A program made the position numbers and the translations under genes. A stretch of DNA of 64,000 nt from Euzebya rosea (lineage in GTDB: Bacteria; Actinomycetota; Nitriliruptoria; Euzebyales; Euzebyaceae): positions 124,001-188,000 of the forward strand of contig NZ_PGDQ01000012.1 in NCBI RefSeq assembly GCF_003073135.1, given 5' to 3'. A model generated the notes under the pieces. It worked only from the letters and a program-made list of their open reading frames with translations. It made no database searches and was not told where the DNA came from. Shown in pieces: positions 49,138 to 56,827 of this stretch (position 1 is the first letter of the stretch; the number at the start of each line of letters is the position of its first letter).

Positions 49138-49157
49138 GCCCCCTCAGCCGAGGGGGC
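49138..49157. terminator. Bidirectional hairpin between SulP and FAD/Rieske genes
   Basis: GCCCCCTC-AGCC-GAGGGGGC forms a perfect eight-pair stem with a four-base loop. It overlaps the stop codon of the FAD/Rieske gene and can end both convergent transcripts. Confidence 0.6.
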
Positions 49158-50616
49158 GGTTGGCCGGGCCGTGGCGCACGTCCCCGTCGTGCTCGAACCG
49201 GCTGCCGTGCAACGGGCAGTCCCACGTGCGGTCGCCGTCGTTCCACGTGACGATGCCGCCGAGGTGGGGGCAGATGGCCCGGTTGTCGTGGCGTTCGCCG
49301 TCCACCCGGCAGGACGCGACGACGTCGACGCCCCTGCGGCCGACGACCCCGTCGCCCTCGGCCAGCTCGTCGGGCACGCGCTTCAGCACCGCGCCGGCCC
49401 AGCCGCCGGTCATGTGCGTGCCGACCTTGGCGTTGGCCTGCACGACGGTCCTCGCGCCGGACAGGTCCGGCAGCCGGCGGGGATGGACTGCCCGGTCGAA
49501 CGGGGTCGGCGCCTCGCCGAGGATCGCCCGCGAGACGGTGGCGGCGCAGGCGGCGCCGAGGGTGAACCCCCACTTGGACATGCCGGTGATGACGAAGCTG
49601 CCGTCGCCGACGCGGTTGAGGGGACCGGCGAACGGCAGCCGGTCGGGCGACATGAAGTCCATCGCGCTCCAGCGGGCAACGACGTCGCCGACGCCGTCGA
49701 GGTTGTCGCGTGCCCACGACTCCAGCGCCGTGTATCGCTGGCTGGTCAGCCCTCCGGCGCCGGTGCGGTGGGGTTGTCCACCGACCAGCACCAGCCGATC
49801 GTCCGGCGTGGCGCCGGGCACCCACCGGATCGACACCTTGGGGTCGCCGGTGGTGATCAGCATGTCCCCGCCCTCGCCCGGGTGCCGCATGGCCACGAGG
49901 TAGCTGGACTCCGGCTCGCAGAGGGCGAAGTAGCCCCCGCGGTCGAAGACGGGCATGCCGGTGGCGACGACCACGTGGGCGGCCCGGACCGTGCGGTTGC
50001 CGAACCGGACGATCCTGCCACCGGGGGCCGGCAGCAGGCCGGTCGCCCGGGTGTGCTCGGCGACCGTGACCGCGTCGGTCAGCTCGGCGCGCATGCGTCC
50101 GGCCAGCGCGACGGGGTCGACCTGTCCCTGCCCGGTCAGGCGCATGCCACGGTGCGGGTCCGGCCAGTCGTCGGAGGCGCTGTCGAGGACGTCCAGGCCC
50201 GCCTGTCGTGCGGCGTCGATCTCCTCCCCGAGCTGCTGGCGTTCGTCGGCGTCGCGGGCGACCGTGACGGCGTCGCGTGGCTGCCAGACGTCGCCGGCGA
50301 GCTCGCGGAGCCAGCCGAGGGCCTCGGTGTTTGCCTCGGCGTAGGCCCGTGCGGTCTCGGGCCCGTGCCGGTCGGCGAGGTCGGCGTAGATGGTCTGGTG
50401 CAGGGCCGTGACCTTGCTGTTGCTGCGGCCCGTCACGCCGCCGCCGACGACATCGGCGGTGGCCAGCAGTGTCCGCACGCCGGCGCGGCCGAGCCGTACG
50501 GCGGTCGACAGGCCGGCGATGCCCGCGCCGATGACGACGACCTGCACGCGGTCCGGCAGCGCCGGCGGTGCCGACGGGGTGGGGTGGCTGGTCCAGACGG
50601 GGTCGTGGCTGCTCAT
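49144..50616 (-). CDS. FAD-dependent oxidoreductase with C-terminal Rieske [2Fe-2S] domain
   Basis: A 490-residue protein. An N-terminal DAO-type FAD domain (VQVVVIGAGIAGLSTAVRLGRAG at about 25-47) ends near residue 395. The Rieske domain follows with ICPHLGG and WDCPLHGSRF giving the Cys-x-His and Cys-x2-His ligands. The layout matches actinobacterial 'FAD-dependent oxidoreductase/Rieske' proteins of unknown substrate. It overlaps the sulfotransferase gene by four bases (ATGA) and is the last gene of this operon. It may oxidise an amine or deliver electrons to a partner oxygenase; not determinable here. Confidence 0.87.
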   Translation of the reverse strand: MSSHDPVWTSHPTPSAPPALPDRVQVVVIGAGIAGLSTAVRLGRAGVRTLLATADVVGGGVTGRSNSKVTALHQTIYADLADRHGPETARAYAEANTEALGWLRELAGDVWQPRDAVTVARDADERQQLGEEIDAARQAGLDVLDSASDDWPDPHRGMRLTGQGQVDPVALAGRMRAELTDAVTVAEHTRATGLLPAPGGRIVRFGNRTVRAAHVVVATGMPVFDRGGYFALCEPESSYLVAMRHPGEGGDMLITTGDPKVSIRWVPGATPDDRLVLVGGQPHRTGAGGLTSQRYTALESWARDNLDGVGDVVARWSAMDFMSPDRLPFAGPLNRVGDGSFVITGMSKWGFTLGAACAATVSRAILGEAPTPFDRAVHPRRLPDLSGARTVVQANAKVGTHMTGGWAGAVLKRVPDELAEGDGVVGRRGVDVVASCRVDGERHDNRAICPHLGGIVTWNDGDRTWDCPLHGSRFEHDGDVRHGPANRPLG

Positions 50617-51449
50617 CGGTGGGTGGTCCTGACTGCGGGGGGACGGGGGCCGGTGGCGCCGTGTGGCCGCGGGCCGGGGATGCGCTGCAGGCGGTGGCGG
50701 GCGTCGGCGCAGCGGCGGCACCCTCGGGTTGCCTGCTCCCAGCGCTCCAGCACCTGGGCGGTCGCCTGGTCGCGCTGGGGGCGAAGTGCCGTCGTGGCCG
50801 TCGCACCGAGCAGGTCGACGTCGAGGCGGTCGGCGATGTCGCCGATCAGCCGCAGGGGTCGCGGGGACCAGCGTTCGTAGGCGGCCTCGATCCAGGGGAT
50901 CTCGTCCAGCGAGAGGCGTCGGCGCCAGGTCTGCTCCTCGTCGTGCTTGCGGTCGTGCAGCTCGCTGATGCGGTCGATGTCGGCGGCGGCGGGGTCGATG
51001 GGCTGCACGGCACGTTCGGCGCGGCTGGACCACTCGCCGGTGACCTCGGCCCGCCACTGCGAGACGGCAGCCGCGACCTTGTCCTCGCGGGTCAGCAGGA
51101 CCGCCAGCGGGTCGGGCATCGCCCGCAGGCCGACGCCCTCGGTGACCCGGTCGACCTCGGCGAGCTGGTCGGCCATGATCTTGGCGGCGAAGACGCCGTT
51201 GCGGGTCGTCCCGTCGTGCAGGACGCGATGGAGGAAGGTCGACAGGTCGACGTCGTCGGGGAAGTTCCACGCGCGGAGGAACGTGTGGCGTGCCTGGGGC
51301 AGGAAGAACTCCTTGGGATACCCGAGCCGGTCGGTCGTGGTCAGCAGGTCGCACAGCATGGTGGTACCGACCCGCTGCACGCCGCAGAGGAGCAGTGATC
51401 GGGACGGTCGTGTGGACCCCGAGCGGCGGGTCTCGACGTGGCGGATCAC
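50613..51449 (-). CDS. Stf0-family sulfotransferase
   Basis: A 278-residue PAPS-dependent sulfotransferase. The 5'-phosphosulfate loop is LLCGVQRVGTTMLCDLL (about 20-36) and is followed by GYPKEFFLPQ, where Stf0 proteins have a conserved Glu. Another landmark is FAAKIMADQL. The family includes mycobacterial trehalose 2-sulfotransferase. RVGTT replaces the more common RSGST. The GTG start overlaps the glycosyltransferase stop (GTGA). The obvious proposal is that it sulfates the sugar added by the adjacent glycosyltransferase. Confidence 0.85.
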   Translation of the reverse strand: MIRHVETRRSGSTRPSRSLLLCGVQRVGTTMLCDLLTTTDRLGYPKEFFLPQARHTFLRAWNFPDDVDLSTFLHRVLHDGTTRNGVFAAKIMADQLAEVDRVTEGVGLRAMPDPLAVLLTREDKVAAAVSQWRAEVTGEWSSRAERAVQPIDPAAADIDRISELHDRKHDEEQTWRRRLSLDEIPWIEAAYERWSPRPLRLIGDIADRLDVDLLGATATTALRPQRDQATAQVLERWEQATRGCRRCADARHRLQRIPGPRPHGATGPRPPAVRTTHR

Positions 51450-52609
51450 GAGGCCGCTGCGGCGGTCGGCACGGGCGCGCCGGCGCGGGTCAGGTCGATG
51501 ACGCGTTCGCCGTCGTCCGGCGGGCCGTCGTCGCCGGTCGGGTCGGGCCGGGTCGTGGTGTCGGCGGGTTCGGCGAGCCGTGCGATCGCCCGCCGGTAGA
51601 CGGCCTCGTGGGCGCGGGCGATGTCCAGTCGCTGCGCGTCGCGCCAGCGGGGCTGGGCCGGCCGGGGCCGGCTGCCGTGGCGAAGGCGATCGATCACGCC
51701 GGCCAGGGCGTCGCGGTCGGGACGTCCCTCGGCGTCGGTGTGCAGGGGAAGGACCCGGGGCGGTGGGTGCTGGTCGACGATCGGCATGTGCGCGGGGGCG
51801 GCCACCGGCGTGCCGAGGTCGACGCAGGCCTCGGCCCAGCCCGAGTGGGTTCCGAGCCGGTAGGGCAGCACGACCAGGTCCACGTCGGAGAGGTACCGCC
51901 AGAGGTCGGCGTCGTCGAGCCAGCCGGTGTGGTGGAACGCCACGCGCGGATGGGACGCGGCGGCGGCCAGGTGGCGGTACTCCTCCGGCGCGCTGTCGAC
52001 CAGGTCGGGGGCGACGTCGAGCCTGAGGTGCACGTCGGCACGGTCCGCCATGACGTCGAGGACGGCGTCGACGAACGGTCGGGCGTCGATGCCGACCCGC
52101 TGGTCCTTGCCGTGGATGGCCACGGTGAAGGTGTCGCGTCGTGGTCGGACGGTGGCCGCGATCGTGTCGAGGTCGGCGACGTGGGGGTGGGGGATGACGG
52201 TCGCGCGGCGACCGGTGCGCTGGCGGACCCGGTCGGCGGCGGCGTGGGTCAGGGTGATGACCTCGTCGGCGGTGCGGCACAGGAACGCGACCTGTCGATG
52301 GTGGCGCTCCTGGTCGGCGACGTGGGGGTTGTCCAGGTCGTGGACGGTGTACACGAGGGGGATGCGGTGAGCGGCGAGGGCAGCCCGCCACTGGCGCCAG
52401 TCCCGGTCGGCGACGTCGCCGAACCCGAAGTGCACGTGCGCCACGTCGACGCCCTCGGCGTGCACCTGCACCCATTCCGCCGTGATCATCTGCGTGGCCC
52501 GGTACGTCTCGGCCGGGGTGGCGACGCGAGCCACCGGAACCGCCGGGTGCGCCAGATGGCGCGTGTAGACGTGGCGGGCGGGAACGGAGGCGACGACGAG
52601 CGGCTGCAT
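51446..52609 (-). CDS. Glycosyltransferase, GT4-like (GT-B fold)
   Basis: A 387-residue enzyme. The N-terminal Rossmann half has VVASVPARHVYTRHL and DVAHVHFGFGDVADRDWRQW; a VIPHPHVADL strand links to the C-terminal half with FTVAIHGKDQRVG and the nucleotide-sugar region YLSDVDLVVLPYRLGTHSGWAEACVDLGTPVAA, which holds the Glu of GT4 enzymes. The start at MQPLVVASVP is chosen; the frame is open a little further upstream. It overlaps the sulfotransferase gene by four bases and starts 73 bases after the M50 gene. Donor and acceptor are unknown. Confidence 0.83.
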   Translation of the reverse strand: MQPLVVASVPARHVYTRHLAHPAVPVARVATPAETYRATQMITAEWVQVHAEGVDVAHVHFGFGDVADRDWRQWRAALAAHRIPLVYTVHDLDNPHVADQERHHRQVAFLCRTADEVITLTHAAADRVRQRTGRRATVIPHPHVADLDTIAATVRPRRDTFTVAIHGKDQRVGIDARPFVDAVLDVMADRADVHLRLDVAPDLVDSAPEEYRHLAAAASHPRVAFHHTGWLDDADLWRYLSDVDLVVLPYRLGTHSGWAEACVDLGTPVAAPAHMPIVDQHPPPRVLPLHTDAEGRPDRDALAGVIDRLRHGSRPRPAQPRWRDAQRLDIARAHEAVYRRAIARLAEPADTTTRPDPTGDDGPPDDGERVIDLTRAGAPVPTAAAAS

Positions 52610-52682
52610 GGGCCCAAGCGATACCCCTGTTCCGGGGGCGTTCACACCACGGGCCACGGCCGCGTGGGGGTCGCCTGGCGGA

Positions 52683-55340
52683 TCACATGGCCACCCGCTC
52701 GCCCGACGTGGAGGGCGTGTCGGCGGTCACGACGAGCCCCTGTCGTCCGAGCGGCGCGACTGGAGGCGGGTCGGCGACCGTCGGGGCCGGGGACGACTCC
52801 GCCGTGCCGGGCTCCTCGCTCGCCGTGGGTACTTCGGATGCCACCTCGTCCGCCACGACCGGCTCGTCCGGGGACACATGCACGTCACCCACGAGGGGGT
52901 CCGCGGACGGGATGGGCTCCTCGGACGGGACGGGCTCCTCGATCGGGACGGGCTGCTCGATCGGGACGGGCTGCTCGATCGGGACGGGCTGCTCGGACGG
53001 GAGTGGCGCGAGGTCGTCGGCGAGCTCGGGGGCCTCCATCGGGACTCGGCGCTCGACCGGTCCGGCGGACGCCGTCGTCTCGACCGGCTCCAGCGGTCCG
53101 GCCGACTGCATCGAGGCTGCCGGCTCTCCGGGATCGGTCGACGCGGTCGATGCGCCCCGGCGGCCGATGGGGCCGGCGGGCTGCAGCGTGCCGTCGCCAC
53201 GTCGCTCGGCGTAGGTGGGTCCGGCGACCGACTCGGGGTCGTCCGGGTCCGCGGGCAGCTCCACGCCCAGGGTGGTCAGGATCTCGTCCTGCAGTCGGAC
53301 GAGCTCGCCGTGCACGACCTCCAGCGAGGCCGACTCGACGGTGGACTGCAGGGCGTCGACCTGCGCCCACAACGCCTCGATGGCCTCCATGGTCTCCACC
53401 GACGGCATCTCCTCCAGCGTCACCATCATCTGCACGGCCAGGGCCTCGGTGGTGCAGCCGACGCAGACGTGGTTGACCGCCACGGCCTGGTTGTTCGGGA
53501 CGGCCACGTCCACTCGTCCGGTCGCGAGGAGCACCTGGAACGCCACGGCCCGGCTGCTGCAGCCGACGCAGCTGGCGGCGGCGTAGGCGACGTTGTGCTC
53601 GTCGACCACGGACTGGTCGTCGAGCCACTGCAGCTGGGCGACGAAGTCGGTGATGGACGTGCCGTCCACGGTGTTGACGGCCAGCACCACGTTGTCGCCG
53701 GGCCGAGCGTCAGCCGGCGGATCGAAGGGGAAGGGCCACGCGTCGACGGACGCCACCACCACTGCAGCGGTCGGCTGGGCCGTGCCCGCCCGATCCCCGC
53801 GGAGGGACGCCAGCCGCTCGCCCGACAGCACCAGCCAGCGGGCGGTCTGGTCCGCCAGCGGACGGGACTCGGGTACGGCGTGTTCGGTGGCGGCCGGTTC
53901 CACGGCCACCGTCCAGCGGTCGGGATCGATCGTGGCCGGGGTCGTGGCGGCTGCCCGGGGCAGGGGCAGGGAGGACGCCAGCATCGGACCGGCTGGCTGG
54001 GGCGCGGGCATCCAGCTGGTCGTGGTCGCCAGCAGCAACCCGAGCACGGCCACGCTGGCCAGGCCACGGGCGGCGGGACGTCCCTCGGTGGCGCCCCACA
54101 GGGCGGTTGCGCTGCGAGTCGACACCCGGCCGAGCAGGTAGACCATGCCGAGCGGCACCAGCCCGACGGTCAGGATGGCCACTGCGCCGAGGGCCACCCG
54201 CACGCCGTCGCCGGCGCCGAGGTTGGTTCGCAGCTGCGTCACGTGGAACGCGATGCTCTCCCCCGCCGACGCCAGCACGGACGGCAGCCCGATGACGGCG
54301 AGGACCAGCAGGGCCAGCAACGACGGGACGACGAGCAGGACCCAGCCGGTGACGACGGCCCGGACCCACGGGCGCAGCGCCTGCTGGGATCCGTCGCCGC
54401 GGCCGACGACGCCGAGCAGGATCGGCTTGATGCGGGCGAACAGGTCGGGCACGCCGGTCAGGTCCGCGAGGATGTGGTACCCGTCGAACCGCACGAGGGG
54501 GATCAGCTGCCGCAGCATCTGCAGCAGCTGGACGGGGAGGAGGACCAGGAGGGCGTCCTGGCGGGTGACCCCCCAGGCGGCGACGGCGCCGACGGCGAAC
54601 AGGACGTTGAAGTACAGCCCGCCGAGGTCGACCCGCAGCCGTCCTCGCTTGTCCAGGCGGTAGGAGTCGGTCACGTCTGTCCAGAAGACCGGCCAGACCA
54701 GGTACAGCGCGGCGCCCATCGCGCCGGGGGTGGCGCCGCCGTAGCGGCAGGCCGCGGCATGGCCCAGCTCGTGGAACGCCGCGGACACCACGGTGCTGGC
54801 GATGACCAGCAGCAGCATCTCGGGGCGCTGGAGCACGTCGTCCAGCGCCATGCCGAGGCCACGGTCGACCATCACCCACCAGGTCATCAGGGCGAACGTC
54901 ACGAGGACGGGCACGACCGCCCACCAGGCGAACAGCCAGGCGAACGGACGGACCAGCCACTGGGTGACCCTCGGGTTGCTGACGACCAGCCGCCACCGCA
55001 GGCCGAGCAGCGGGTTGCTGCGCCGCGGGGTCGGCTGGCTGCCGTCGGGACGGACCAGCAGCCCGGCCGGCGCCAGCTTCTCCGTGGCCAGGTACTGCAC
55101 GTCGTCGGCCGTGACCGGCCGGACGATCCGATCGGCCACCACCGCCGCCACCTCGTCCCAGGAGCGCTGGCCGTCGATCGCGGACAGCACCTCGTACAGC
55201 AGCGGGCTGAGCTGCACGGTCTGGCCGTCGACACGACGGACGAGCAGGGGCGGGCGGACGTACCCCGACCCCTGCATGGGGCCGAGGAGGGCGACCCCCG
55301 ACGCACGTTCGGGCGGTCGGGGGGTGGCGGTGGTGGTCAT
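52683..55340 (-). CDS. PqqD-like/M50 membrane zinc metalloprotease with paired CxxC domain and repeat tail
   Basis: An 885-residue polytopic protein. Residues about 25-95 form a PqqD-like winged domain (QLSPLLYEVLSAIDGQRSWDEVAAVV). A membrane M50 protease follows: HELGH at 190-194 in VVSAAFHELGHAAACRYGG and the third-ligand region LVRFDGYHILADLTGVP, with at least eight more helices to about 465. A duplicated extracytoplasmic unit has CVGC near 591 and CVGC near 625, each followed by xxxAxxxQ. The tail contains PVPIEQ/PVPIEE hexapeptide repeats and ends without a known sorting motif. This matches actinobacterial 'putative peptide zinc metalloprotease' proteins. It follows a repeat protein by 22 bases and probably processes or exports it (inference). 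Confidence 0.88.
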   Translation of the reverse strand: MTTTATPRPPERASGVALLGPMQGSGYVRPPLLVRRVDGQTVQLSPLLYEVLSAIDGQRSWDEVAAVVADRIVRPVTADDVQYLATEKLAPAGLLVRPDGSQPTPRRSNPLLGLRWRLVVSNPRVTQWLVRPFAWLFAWWAVVPVLVTFALMTWWVMVDRGLGMALDDVLQRPEMLLLVIASTVVSAAFHELGHAAACRYGGATPGAMGAALYLVWPVFWTDVTDSYRLDKRGRLRVDLGGLYFNVLFAVGAVAAWGVTRQDALLVLLPVQLLQMLRQLIPLVRFDGYHILADLTGVPDLFARIKPILLGVVGRGDGSQQALRPWVRAVVTGWVLLVVPSLLALLVLAVIGLPSVLASAGESIAFHVTQLRTNLGAGDGVRVALGAVAILTVGLVPLGMVYLLGRVSTRSATALWGATEGRPAARGLASVAVLGLLLATTTSWMPAPQPAGPMLASSLPLPRAAATTPATIDPDRWTVAVEPAATEHAVPESRPLADQTARWLVLSGERLASLRGDRAGTAQPTAAVVVASVDAWPFPFDPPADARPGDNVVLAVNTVDGTSITDFVAQLQWLDDQSVVDEHNVAYAAASCVGCSSRAVAFQVLLATGRVDVAVPNNQAVAVNHVCVGCTTEALAVQMMVTLEEMPSVETMEAIEALWAQVDALQSTVESASLEVVHGELVRLQDEILTTLGVELPADPDDPESVAGPTYAERRGDGTLQPAGPIGRRGASTASTDPGEPAASMQSAGPLEPVETTASAGPVERRVPMEAPELADDLAPLPSEQPVPIEQPVPIEQPVPIEEPVPSEEPIPSADPLVGDVHVSPDEPVVADEVASEVPTASEEPGTAESSPAPTVADPPPVAPLGRQGLVVTADTPSTSGERVAM
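52905..52994. repeat. Five tandem 18-base units coding hexapeptide repeats
   Basis: Units start at 52905, 52923, 52941, 52959 and 52977; the last three are identical, GATCGGGACGGGCTGCTC. On the minus strand they encode PVPIEQ/PVPIEE/PVPSEE/PIPSAD-like hexapeptides in the tail of the M50 protein. The nearly perfect DNA identity suggests recent slippage expansion. Confidence 0.8.
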
Positions 55341-55362
55341 CGGAGGCGCAGCGGGGACGGTG

Positions 55363-56193
55363 CTACTGCAGGACCTCGGCGTCCTGGTCGGCAACAGCCT
55401 CGGCCACGACGTCGTCCAGGTTCTGGGTGATGATGGCGGTCTGGTCGGTGACCGCGGTGGCCTGGGAGGCGACGGCGCCGATGTTGGCCGACACCGCAGC
55501 CGTGATCGGGGCAGCGACGTTGGCGTTGGCCGCGATGGCGCCGGCAACCGGAGCGGCCAGGGCCGCGTCGAGGTTGGCGTTGACGTCGACGTTCAGCAGG
55601 CCGTCCTGGAGCAAGTTGCTCGTGTCGAGCTGACCGACGGCATCGGTCACGGCACCGCCGAGCTCCTCGGCCGCTTCGCCCACGACATCGGTCAGGTCGC
55701 CCGCCGCGTCGGTCACCCCGTCGGTGACGTCCCCGGTCGTGTCGGTGACGTCCCCGACCGCGTCGGTCACGGGATCGGTCACGTCGCCGGTCGCAGGCTG
55801 CACGACGTCGAAGCTGCGCGGGGCCACCATGCCGCCGTCGGCCCCGCCGCTCGTGCCGCCGCCGGTCTGGTCGACCACGGCCGACTGGGGCGCCTGGGCC
55901 GAGGCCTCCCCGGAGATGGTCTGCTCGATCGTGGCGTTCTGGCTGCCCATGGACTGCGAGATCGAGTCGACGGTCAGGACGTCGGCGGCGACCGCAGCGT
56001 CGATCGGGGCTGCCACGTTGGCGTTCGCTGCCACGGCCAGGTCGATCGGGGCGGCCAGGTCCAGCATCAGGTCGAGGTCGACGTTGAGGTTCAGCAGGGA
56101 CAGCACCTCCTTGTCGGGAAGCGGCTGGGCCAGCTCGGCGTCCAGCTCGGCGCGGGAGAGGCGTGCGCCCTGTGCGGGCAGGCGGTCGTGCAT
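55363..56193 (-). CDS. Ala/Asn/Asp-rich repeat protein paired with M50 protease
   Basis: A 276-residue, Cys-free, very acidic protein with no classical signal peptide. An N-terminal leader-like part (MHDRLPAQGARLSRAELDAE, then LPDKEVLSLLNLNVDLDLML) is followed by two similar blocks: LAVAANANVAAPIDAAVAAD (about 50-75) and IAANANVAAPITAAVSANIG (about 210-235), each followed by QxAxIxQ-like segments. Between them lies a DVTDPVTDAVGDVTDTTGDV heptad-like repeat. AGGAG seven bases upstream fixes the start. Similar proteins sit next to M50/PqqD-domain proteins in other actinobacteria as far as I recall, without known function. I propose it is the substrate or structural product of this operon. Confidence 0.72.
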   Translation of the reverse strand: MHDRLPAQGARLSRAELDAELAQPLPDKEVLSLLNLNVDLDLMLDLAAPIDLAVAANANVAAPIDAAVAADVLTVDSISQSMGSQNATIEQTISGEASAQAPQSAVVDQTGGGTSGGADGGMVAPRSFDVVQPATGDVTDPVTDAVGDVTDTTGDVTDGVTDAAGDLTDVVGEAAEELGGAVTDAVGQLDTSNLLQDGLLNVDVNANLDAALAAPVAGAIAANANVAAPITAAVSANIGAVASQATAVTDQTAIITQNLDDVVAEAVADQDAEVLQ

Positions 56194-56386: not shown

Positions 56387-56827
56387 TCAGCGCTGGCAGA
56401 AGAGGATGGCGTCCTCACCCTCGCCTTCCTGGACCAGGCACGGCACCCCGTCGACGAGGACCGGGTCATCGCCGCCCTGGCTCTGCAGGGTGATGGTGTT
56501 GACCAGGACCAGCAGGAACGTGAGGGCGCTCAGCCCCGCGATGACCAGCAGGAGCTTGGCCCGGTTGTCCGGTTCGCGAAGGTCCTTGACGACGTCGGGT
56601 GTCCGGGCGTGTTCGTCACGCGCCTCGTGGCGATCGCCGAACCGGTGGCCGTCGTCGACGCGGTCGTCGGTGTACGGAGCCCGGTCGGCCACCTCGGTCC
56701 GCGGCAGCGGCACGGTCCGGGCCGCGCGGGCCCGGGCCACGGGGTCTGCCGGGTCGTCCGTCCGCTCGACCCGGAGCGGGTCGTCGGTCTCGCCGAGCGA
56801 ACTGTTGGGGCCGTGGATGCTGCTCAT
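56387..56827 (-). CDS. Hypothetical single-pass membrane protein with C-terminal Cys pair
   Basis: I do not recognise this 146-residue protein. Residues 1-90 are hydrophilic and highly charged (ADRAPYTDDRVDDGHRFGDR). A membrane helix covers about 92-112 (LLLVIAGLSALTFLLVLVNTI), and the short exported tail has two Cys (DGVPCLVQEGEGEDAILFCQ) that could form a disulfide. GGAGGGAA upstream supports the ATG. It lies upstream of the M50 operon on the same strand but behind a strong terminator, and is divergent from osmC. Confidence 0.65.
   Translation of the reverse strand: MSSIHGPNSSLGETDDPLRVERTDDPADPVARARAARTVPLPRTEVADRAPYTDDRVDDGHRFGDRHEARDEHARTPDVVKDLREPDNRAKLLLVIAGLSALTFLLVLVNTITLQSQGGDDPVLVDGVPCLVQEGEGEDAILFCQR

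Follow-up and report, generated by a model that had tools for sequence, protein, structure and literature searches.

In daptide biosynthesis, leaders are removed by MpaP, an intramembrane peptidase that depends on a RiPP recognition element (RRE) and in which this RRE is fused to a site-2 protease (PMC10036551). The membrane M50 protease EpeP of the epipeptides is thought to both cleave and export (PMC10885120). TMcin precursors consist of a leader, a transmembrane helix and a C-terminal segment; they are processed by a site-2 protease, and the system includes a β-bearing escort (PMC13252029). Here, a gene pair of Euzebya rosea is described that encodes a repeat protein and an RRE-fused site-2 (M50) intramembrane protease. 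The pair lies in a window of 64,000 nucleotides (contig NZ_PGDQ01000012.1, positions 124,001–188,000 of the forward strand). Positions given without a locus prefix refer to this window, and all features described in it are located on its minus strand. The repeat protein (276 residues, 55363–56193) comprises a leader and two core units and is followed by the protease (885 residues, 52683–55340). Both genes form a conserved two-gene unit, which we take, with a probability of roughly 70%, to be a leader-directed maturation system.

Relatives were collected by scanning 84,980 species genomes with the N-terminal half of the protease, and the best 80 of 295 relatives were used. They include proteins from Mycolicibacterium, Arthrobacter, Pseudarthrobacter, Nocardioides, Actinokineospora, Geodermatophilus, Acidimicrobiia and others. 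Directly upstream of virtually all these relatives, a leader-bearing repeat protein is encoded on the same strand, with a median gap of 41 bases. With a leader profile, which was trained partly on these loci, the precursor is found in 104 of the 108 locus windows (with some loci counted twice). Two of the four misses (L035 and L093) are contigs that end near the protease start. The leader of L118 is weak but visible, and for L107 (genome G193) the precursors are located on another contig. The loci of this genome are L107 (C2), L122 (C4) and L124 (C6); on a third contig, the protease is present as a fragment containing an in-frame stop.

A whole-genome search of 396 sampled actinobacterial genomes with the precursor alignment A6 is more independent than the leader profile. 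It detects the precursor in 18 genomes, 17 of which also contain the protease, whereas 7 genomes contain the protease only, 1 the precursor only and 371 neither (Fisher test, 2e-23). Several of the genomes found (G048, G109, G119, G290 and G046) made no contribution to A6. In each of the seven genomes where the protease is present but A6 finds nothing, a divergent open reading frame with a leader adjoins the protease gene; in one of the seven it is weak.

The protease is an intramembrane site-2 protease with an N-terminal RRE and is closest to the daptide leader protease. It matches the NCBIfam model daptide_HExxH over residues 31–349, including the RRE part (E = 4.7e-30; 105 bits versus a cut-off of 300). 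The match to NCBIfam YydH/LiaK is weaker, and both are far below the cut-offs. No significant sequence match to Pfam M50 or PqqD was obtained, and comparison of the protease profile with the sequences of solved structures gave no site-2 protease. The structural model consists of an N-terminal domain, a membrane part of several helices and an extracytoplasmic β-domain. The N-terminal domain is predicted to adopt a β3-α3 winged-helix fold (predicted local distance difference test score, pLDDT, about 93) with strands 17–21, 32–35 and 41–44 and helices 46–54, 61–72 and 78–89 at high pLDDT. Foldseek superimposes it on the lasso-peptide RRE TbiB1, whose structure was determined together with its leader (5v1u_B; probability 0.97, E = 0.16, template modelling score 0.60 over the target). 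From fold and Foldseek match, residues 17–96 (55053–55292) are predicted to be an RRE/PqqD-like domain that binds the leader.

Hydropathy predicts seven transmembrane segments in residues 133–444 (54009–54944). The HExxH zinc motif (residues 190–194; 54759–54773) is located inside helix 173–200, and the distal Asp286 (54483–54485) is part of the sequence FDGYH. As expected for a site-2 protease, His190, Glu191, His194 and Asp286 are invariant in 30 relatives. The same holds for Cys591, Cys594, Cys626 and Cys629, which form the two CxxC pairs of the β-domain (residues 548–645; 53406–53699). According to the positive-inside pattern of the membrane segments, the C-terminus is predicted to be outside. 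In four loci (L012, L068, L104 and L112), the CxxC domain is encoded on its own, as a protein whose N-terminus resembles a signal peptide, in agreement with the outside location of this domain.

The repeat protein is free of Cys and contains 33 Asp and 10 Glu versus a total of five Lys plus Arg residues; its N-terminus is not hydrophobic. It has no significant family match in Pfam or NCBIfam; none of the precursors reaches the cut-off of a model in these collections, and their profile finds nothing among the sequences of solved structures. The leader (residues 1–35; 56089–56193) carries the conserved motif LSxxELxAExxxxLPDKExxS and two short predicted helices (14–21 and 27–34). Core unit 1 (residues 36–109; 55867–56088) starts with the Ala-rich AANANVAAPI segment, which is followed by β-repeats. 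Core unit 2 (residues 200–276; 55366–55596) is 49% identical to it over 77 columns (E = 1e-16). In the model of the protein, which has low overall confidence, each unit is composed of a helix and subsequent strands. From hydropathy, the Ala-rich segment was judged unlikely to be an ordinary transmembrane helix. The motif QxxxIxQ occurs 344 times versus 36 times in shuffled sequence, mostly with a spacing of 18 residues.

Precursors occur either as a long two-unit protein (median of 249 residues among the top 80) or as short peptides of 60–75 residues, two to four in tandem. All of them have the leader LSxxELxAExxxxLPxK/RExxS, in this form or as a variant. The cores that follow the common ELxxx...LPxR/K leader differ: they are Ala-rich (NANVAAPVNAAVAANVLS), Q/N-rich (L101, L103), Cys-bearing (L114–L117), His-rich (L113) or hydrophobic (L109, L118 and L119, the latter two ending in GPxWLIG). 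The precursors thus show the ribosomal origin, conserved leader and variable core of ribosomally synthesized and post-translationally modified peptides, and a conserved leader with varied cores is the signature of leader-directed processing. Beside the short-precursor clusters, small proteins without a leader (NAVIAANVGEKGSVSHVSSKQRIVQR and similar) are encoded that look like the precursor core (L012:10607–10825, L101:3830–3991 and L105:7828–8055, all on the minus strand).

These results agree with several claims of the original prediction, which was made from the window alone. A membrane M50 protease with a PqqD-like domain had been proposed; the daptide_HExxH match supports the protease and the predicted fold together with TbiB1 the PqqD-like part. 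The description of a Cys-free, acidic protein with duplicated blocks and no signal peptide is borne out by composition, N-terminus and unit alignment. Repeat protein and protease had also been expected to occur together in actinobacterial genomes; they are adjacent in nearly all relatives, which contradicts the separation that would have spoken against a system. The proposed role of the repeat protein as a leader-bearing substrate is favored at the sequence level by the adjacency of the pair, the conserved leader, the varied cores and the short multi-copy precursors with the same leader.

As in daptides (PMC10036551), the site-2 protease carries an N-terminal RRE, there are several short precursors with leaders, and the leader has an EL...P motif. 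On the other hand, no decarboxylase, dehydrogenase, aminotransferase, methyltransferase or transporter is conserved near the pair. The C-terminal Thr of daptides is not invariant: the window precursor ends with VLQ and Thr ends some short precursors only. The CxxC domain and the long repeat-protein substrates are additional differences. Membership in the daptides was rejected, as MpaB/C/D/M-type genes are missing from the cluster (the neighbors in the window belong to other families), an invariant Thr is missing and the protease is below the equivalog cut-off. EpeP/YydH (PMC10885120) is likewise an M50 protease of the membrane that acts on a leader peptide, and its NCBIfam model is matched weakly here, but the RRE fusion and the CxxC domain distinguish the present protease and a radical SAM epimerase is not conserved. 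A CxxxCxxC gene is present within four genes of the pair in just 1 of 74 loci, and membership in the epipeptides was rejected on this basis. In the TMcin system TmcA/TmcP/TmcE (PMC13252029), a site-2-type protease also removes the precursor leader at the membrane and TmcE escorts the product. However, the DUF3267 protease, the transmembrane Cys-bearing substrate and the ABC transporter of TMcins have no counterpart here. Membership was rejected, since there is no PF11667 (DUF3267) match at E up to 1 and the window precursor lacks Cys.

The outer domain of the protease appears to include a copy of the substrate core with Cys residues, as judged from sequence profiles. The core unit (ANVAAPIDAAVAANIGSVDSxAxAVAxQ) aligns without gaps to residues 610–639 of the protease (VDVAVPNNQAVAVNHVCVGCTTEALAVQMM; 53424–53513) over 30 columns, and none of 300 column shuffles reaches the profile score. 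This comparison is one of five of its kind and the composition is biased; thus the likeness is a lead rather than proof.

Structural surface proteins offer further comparisons. Chaplins use Sec signal peptides, unlike the precursors described here. The Cys-bearing precursors L114–L117 as a set resemble chaplins (PF03777) in a VxVP[IV]xxxxN[VL]C...C-like pattern and score above all 300 shuffles against the chaplin profile (hhalign probability 47%). The best ChpA-C match, found for L116 only, has 15.5 bits versus the Pfam cut-off of 21; the window precursor has none, and equal-scoring matches occur at unrelated open reading frames in a whole-genome search. A chaplin origin of the divergent Cys-bearing precursors is possible, whereas it was rejected for the window's own core (hhalign probability 0.2%). 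In curli, the nucleator CsgB is homologous to CsgA, the Gln-rich repeat-bearing subunit; this is an analogy only. The window precursor has no curlin match (Pfam, E up to 1), and no Csg secretion machinery was found.

At the sequence level, the analysis shows that the two genes are paired, that the leader is conserved while the cores vary, that the catalytic residues are present, and in which order the domains follow; together with the predicted topology, these data are consistent with the following mechanism. The repeat protein would be made in the cytoplasm with its N-terminal leader, which would be captured in the cytosol by the RRE of the protease. The site-2 core, formed by HExxH and the distal Asp, would then cut after the leader and close to the Ala-rich segment. 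By analogy with the described systems, leader capture and cleavage by the protease are probable. The Cys-free, Asp- and Gln-rich core would be released outside the membrane, next to the CxxC domain; for this outward release, which is also suggested by analogy, the odds are about even. Finally, the core-like, β-rich CxxC domain might hold or nucleate the core and thereby yield a β-rich surface or extracellular peptide assembly. Such a nucleated structural assembly is tentative and rather doubtful. Equally speculative is a complete surface-fibre machine, in which one membrane protein would read the leader, cut, pass the repeat protein out without signal peptide or transporter and nucleate polymerisation through a Cys-stapled copy of the subunit.

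Several observations weigh against this interpretation. The model of the repeat protein is weak (mean pLDDT 56), and a fold search of the PDB with it gave no match. The likeness of core and CxxC domain has an hhalign probability of 37%. In G193, the precursors are not linked to the protease. Furthermore, the Ala-rich segments hold Asp, Asn and Pro and are mildly hydrophobic (Kyte-Doolittle values of at most 1.48); being so polar, their insertion into the membrane is doubtful.

Other functions of the pair were considered. Clustering of the neighbors over all loci gave no other family in more than 11 loci, and the families found are at varying offsets. No tailoring enzyme or transporter conserved near the pair was found; an ABC-type gene is present within four genes in 2 of 74 loci. 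The missing transporter, together with the lack of a conserved immunity gene, speaks against a minimal bacteriocin or TMcin-like system, in which the protease would free membrane-active peptides that attack competitors. TMcin precursors are likewise processed by a site-2 protease (PMC13252029), tandem short precursors exist and some cores are hydrophobic, including the two with the GPxWLIG ending. However, the main core type is acidic, Cys-free, often two-unit and highly conserved across classes, unlike diversifying bacteriocins, and this explanation is unlikely. Regulated intramembrane proteolysis, with the repeat protein as a regulator whose cleavage sends a signal, would be in line with the signalling role of many known bacterial site-2 proteases and with a substrate that has no signal peptide. 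It is nevertheless quite improbable: regulatory domains, such as DNA-binding or anti-sigma domains, were not found in family searches, conserved regulator genes near the pair are missing, and multi-copy precursors that have the leader in common but differ in the core are at odds with a regulator.

The original prediction combined the pair with three downstream genes into one operon that would make an oxidised peptide decorated with a sulfated sugar. These genes encode a GT4 glycosyltransferase (387 residues, 51446–52609; GT4 match 1e-7), a Stf0-type sulfotransferase (278 residues, 50613–51449; Stf0 match 1e-21) and an FAD-dependent oxidoreductase with a Rieske domain (490 residues, 49144–50616; DAO 1e-36, Rieske 3e-8). 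The proposed layout of five same-strand genes was reproduced in positions and junctions (gaps of 22 and 73 bases, then two overlaps of four bases), and the gene order is kept in the congener G003. Compared with G003, all five genes are under purifying selection (ratio of nonsynonymous to synonymous substitution rates, dN/dS, 0.12–0.22). However, the glycosyltransferase, Stf0 and Rieske genes adjoin the pair only in this genome and G003; at loci outside the genus, none of them was found beside it. The congener G001 lacks the pair; its glycosyltransferase and Stf0 genes are adjacent to each other on contig 94, and its FAD/Rieske homologue is located on contig 38. As neighbors elsewhere differ and G001 is arranged in this way, the adjacency is local to the genus, which corresponds to the chance adjacency named in the original prediction as its alternative. 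Decoration by these enzymes was rejected on gene neighborhood, the three genes are regarded as neighbors outside the system and a joint five-gene pathway is highly improbable. By eye, the surroundings of the two genes in G001 consist of glycosyltransferase-, acyltransferase- and sulfotransferase-like genes, which suggests a sulfated glycan as target rather than a peptide. At L156:5307–8801 of G001, the two homologues are accompanied by a second sulfotransferase-like gene among glycan-like genes.

Just upstream of the pair, a single-pass membrane protein of 146 residues (56387–56827) is encoded that is genus-restricted and, like the three downstream genes, adjoins the pair only here and in G003. 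It has two Cys within a short C-terminal tail and a dN/dS of 0.32. In two relatives of the window's class, a giant LLDxLL-repeat protein is encoded directly upstream of the pair (L011:3240–7091, plus strand; L010:8694–9065, minus strand), with a LAWTG-like C-terminal anchor in L011.

The pair, which we consider a leader-directed maturation system, is not described in the literature searched, most subscription journals being outside its coverage, and is apparently undescribed. The fusion of an RRE to a site-2 protease is known; the protein-sized repeat substrates, the lack of conserved tailoring enzymes and the outer CxxC domain appear to be new. Leader recognition by RREs is known from small modified peptides. 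Here, leader and RRE occur with whole repeat proteins in about 6% of the sampled actinobacterial genomes (24/396). Discovery methods for leader–RRE systems that are keyed on tailoring enzymes would miss the pair. The hosts include culturable Arthrobacter, Pseudarthrobacter and Mycolicibacterium. With the pair, intramembrane proteolysis that is reached through a soluble leader, and possibly a path to the cell surface that needs no signal peptide, would become directly testable.

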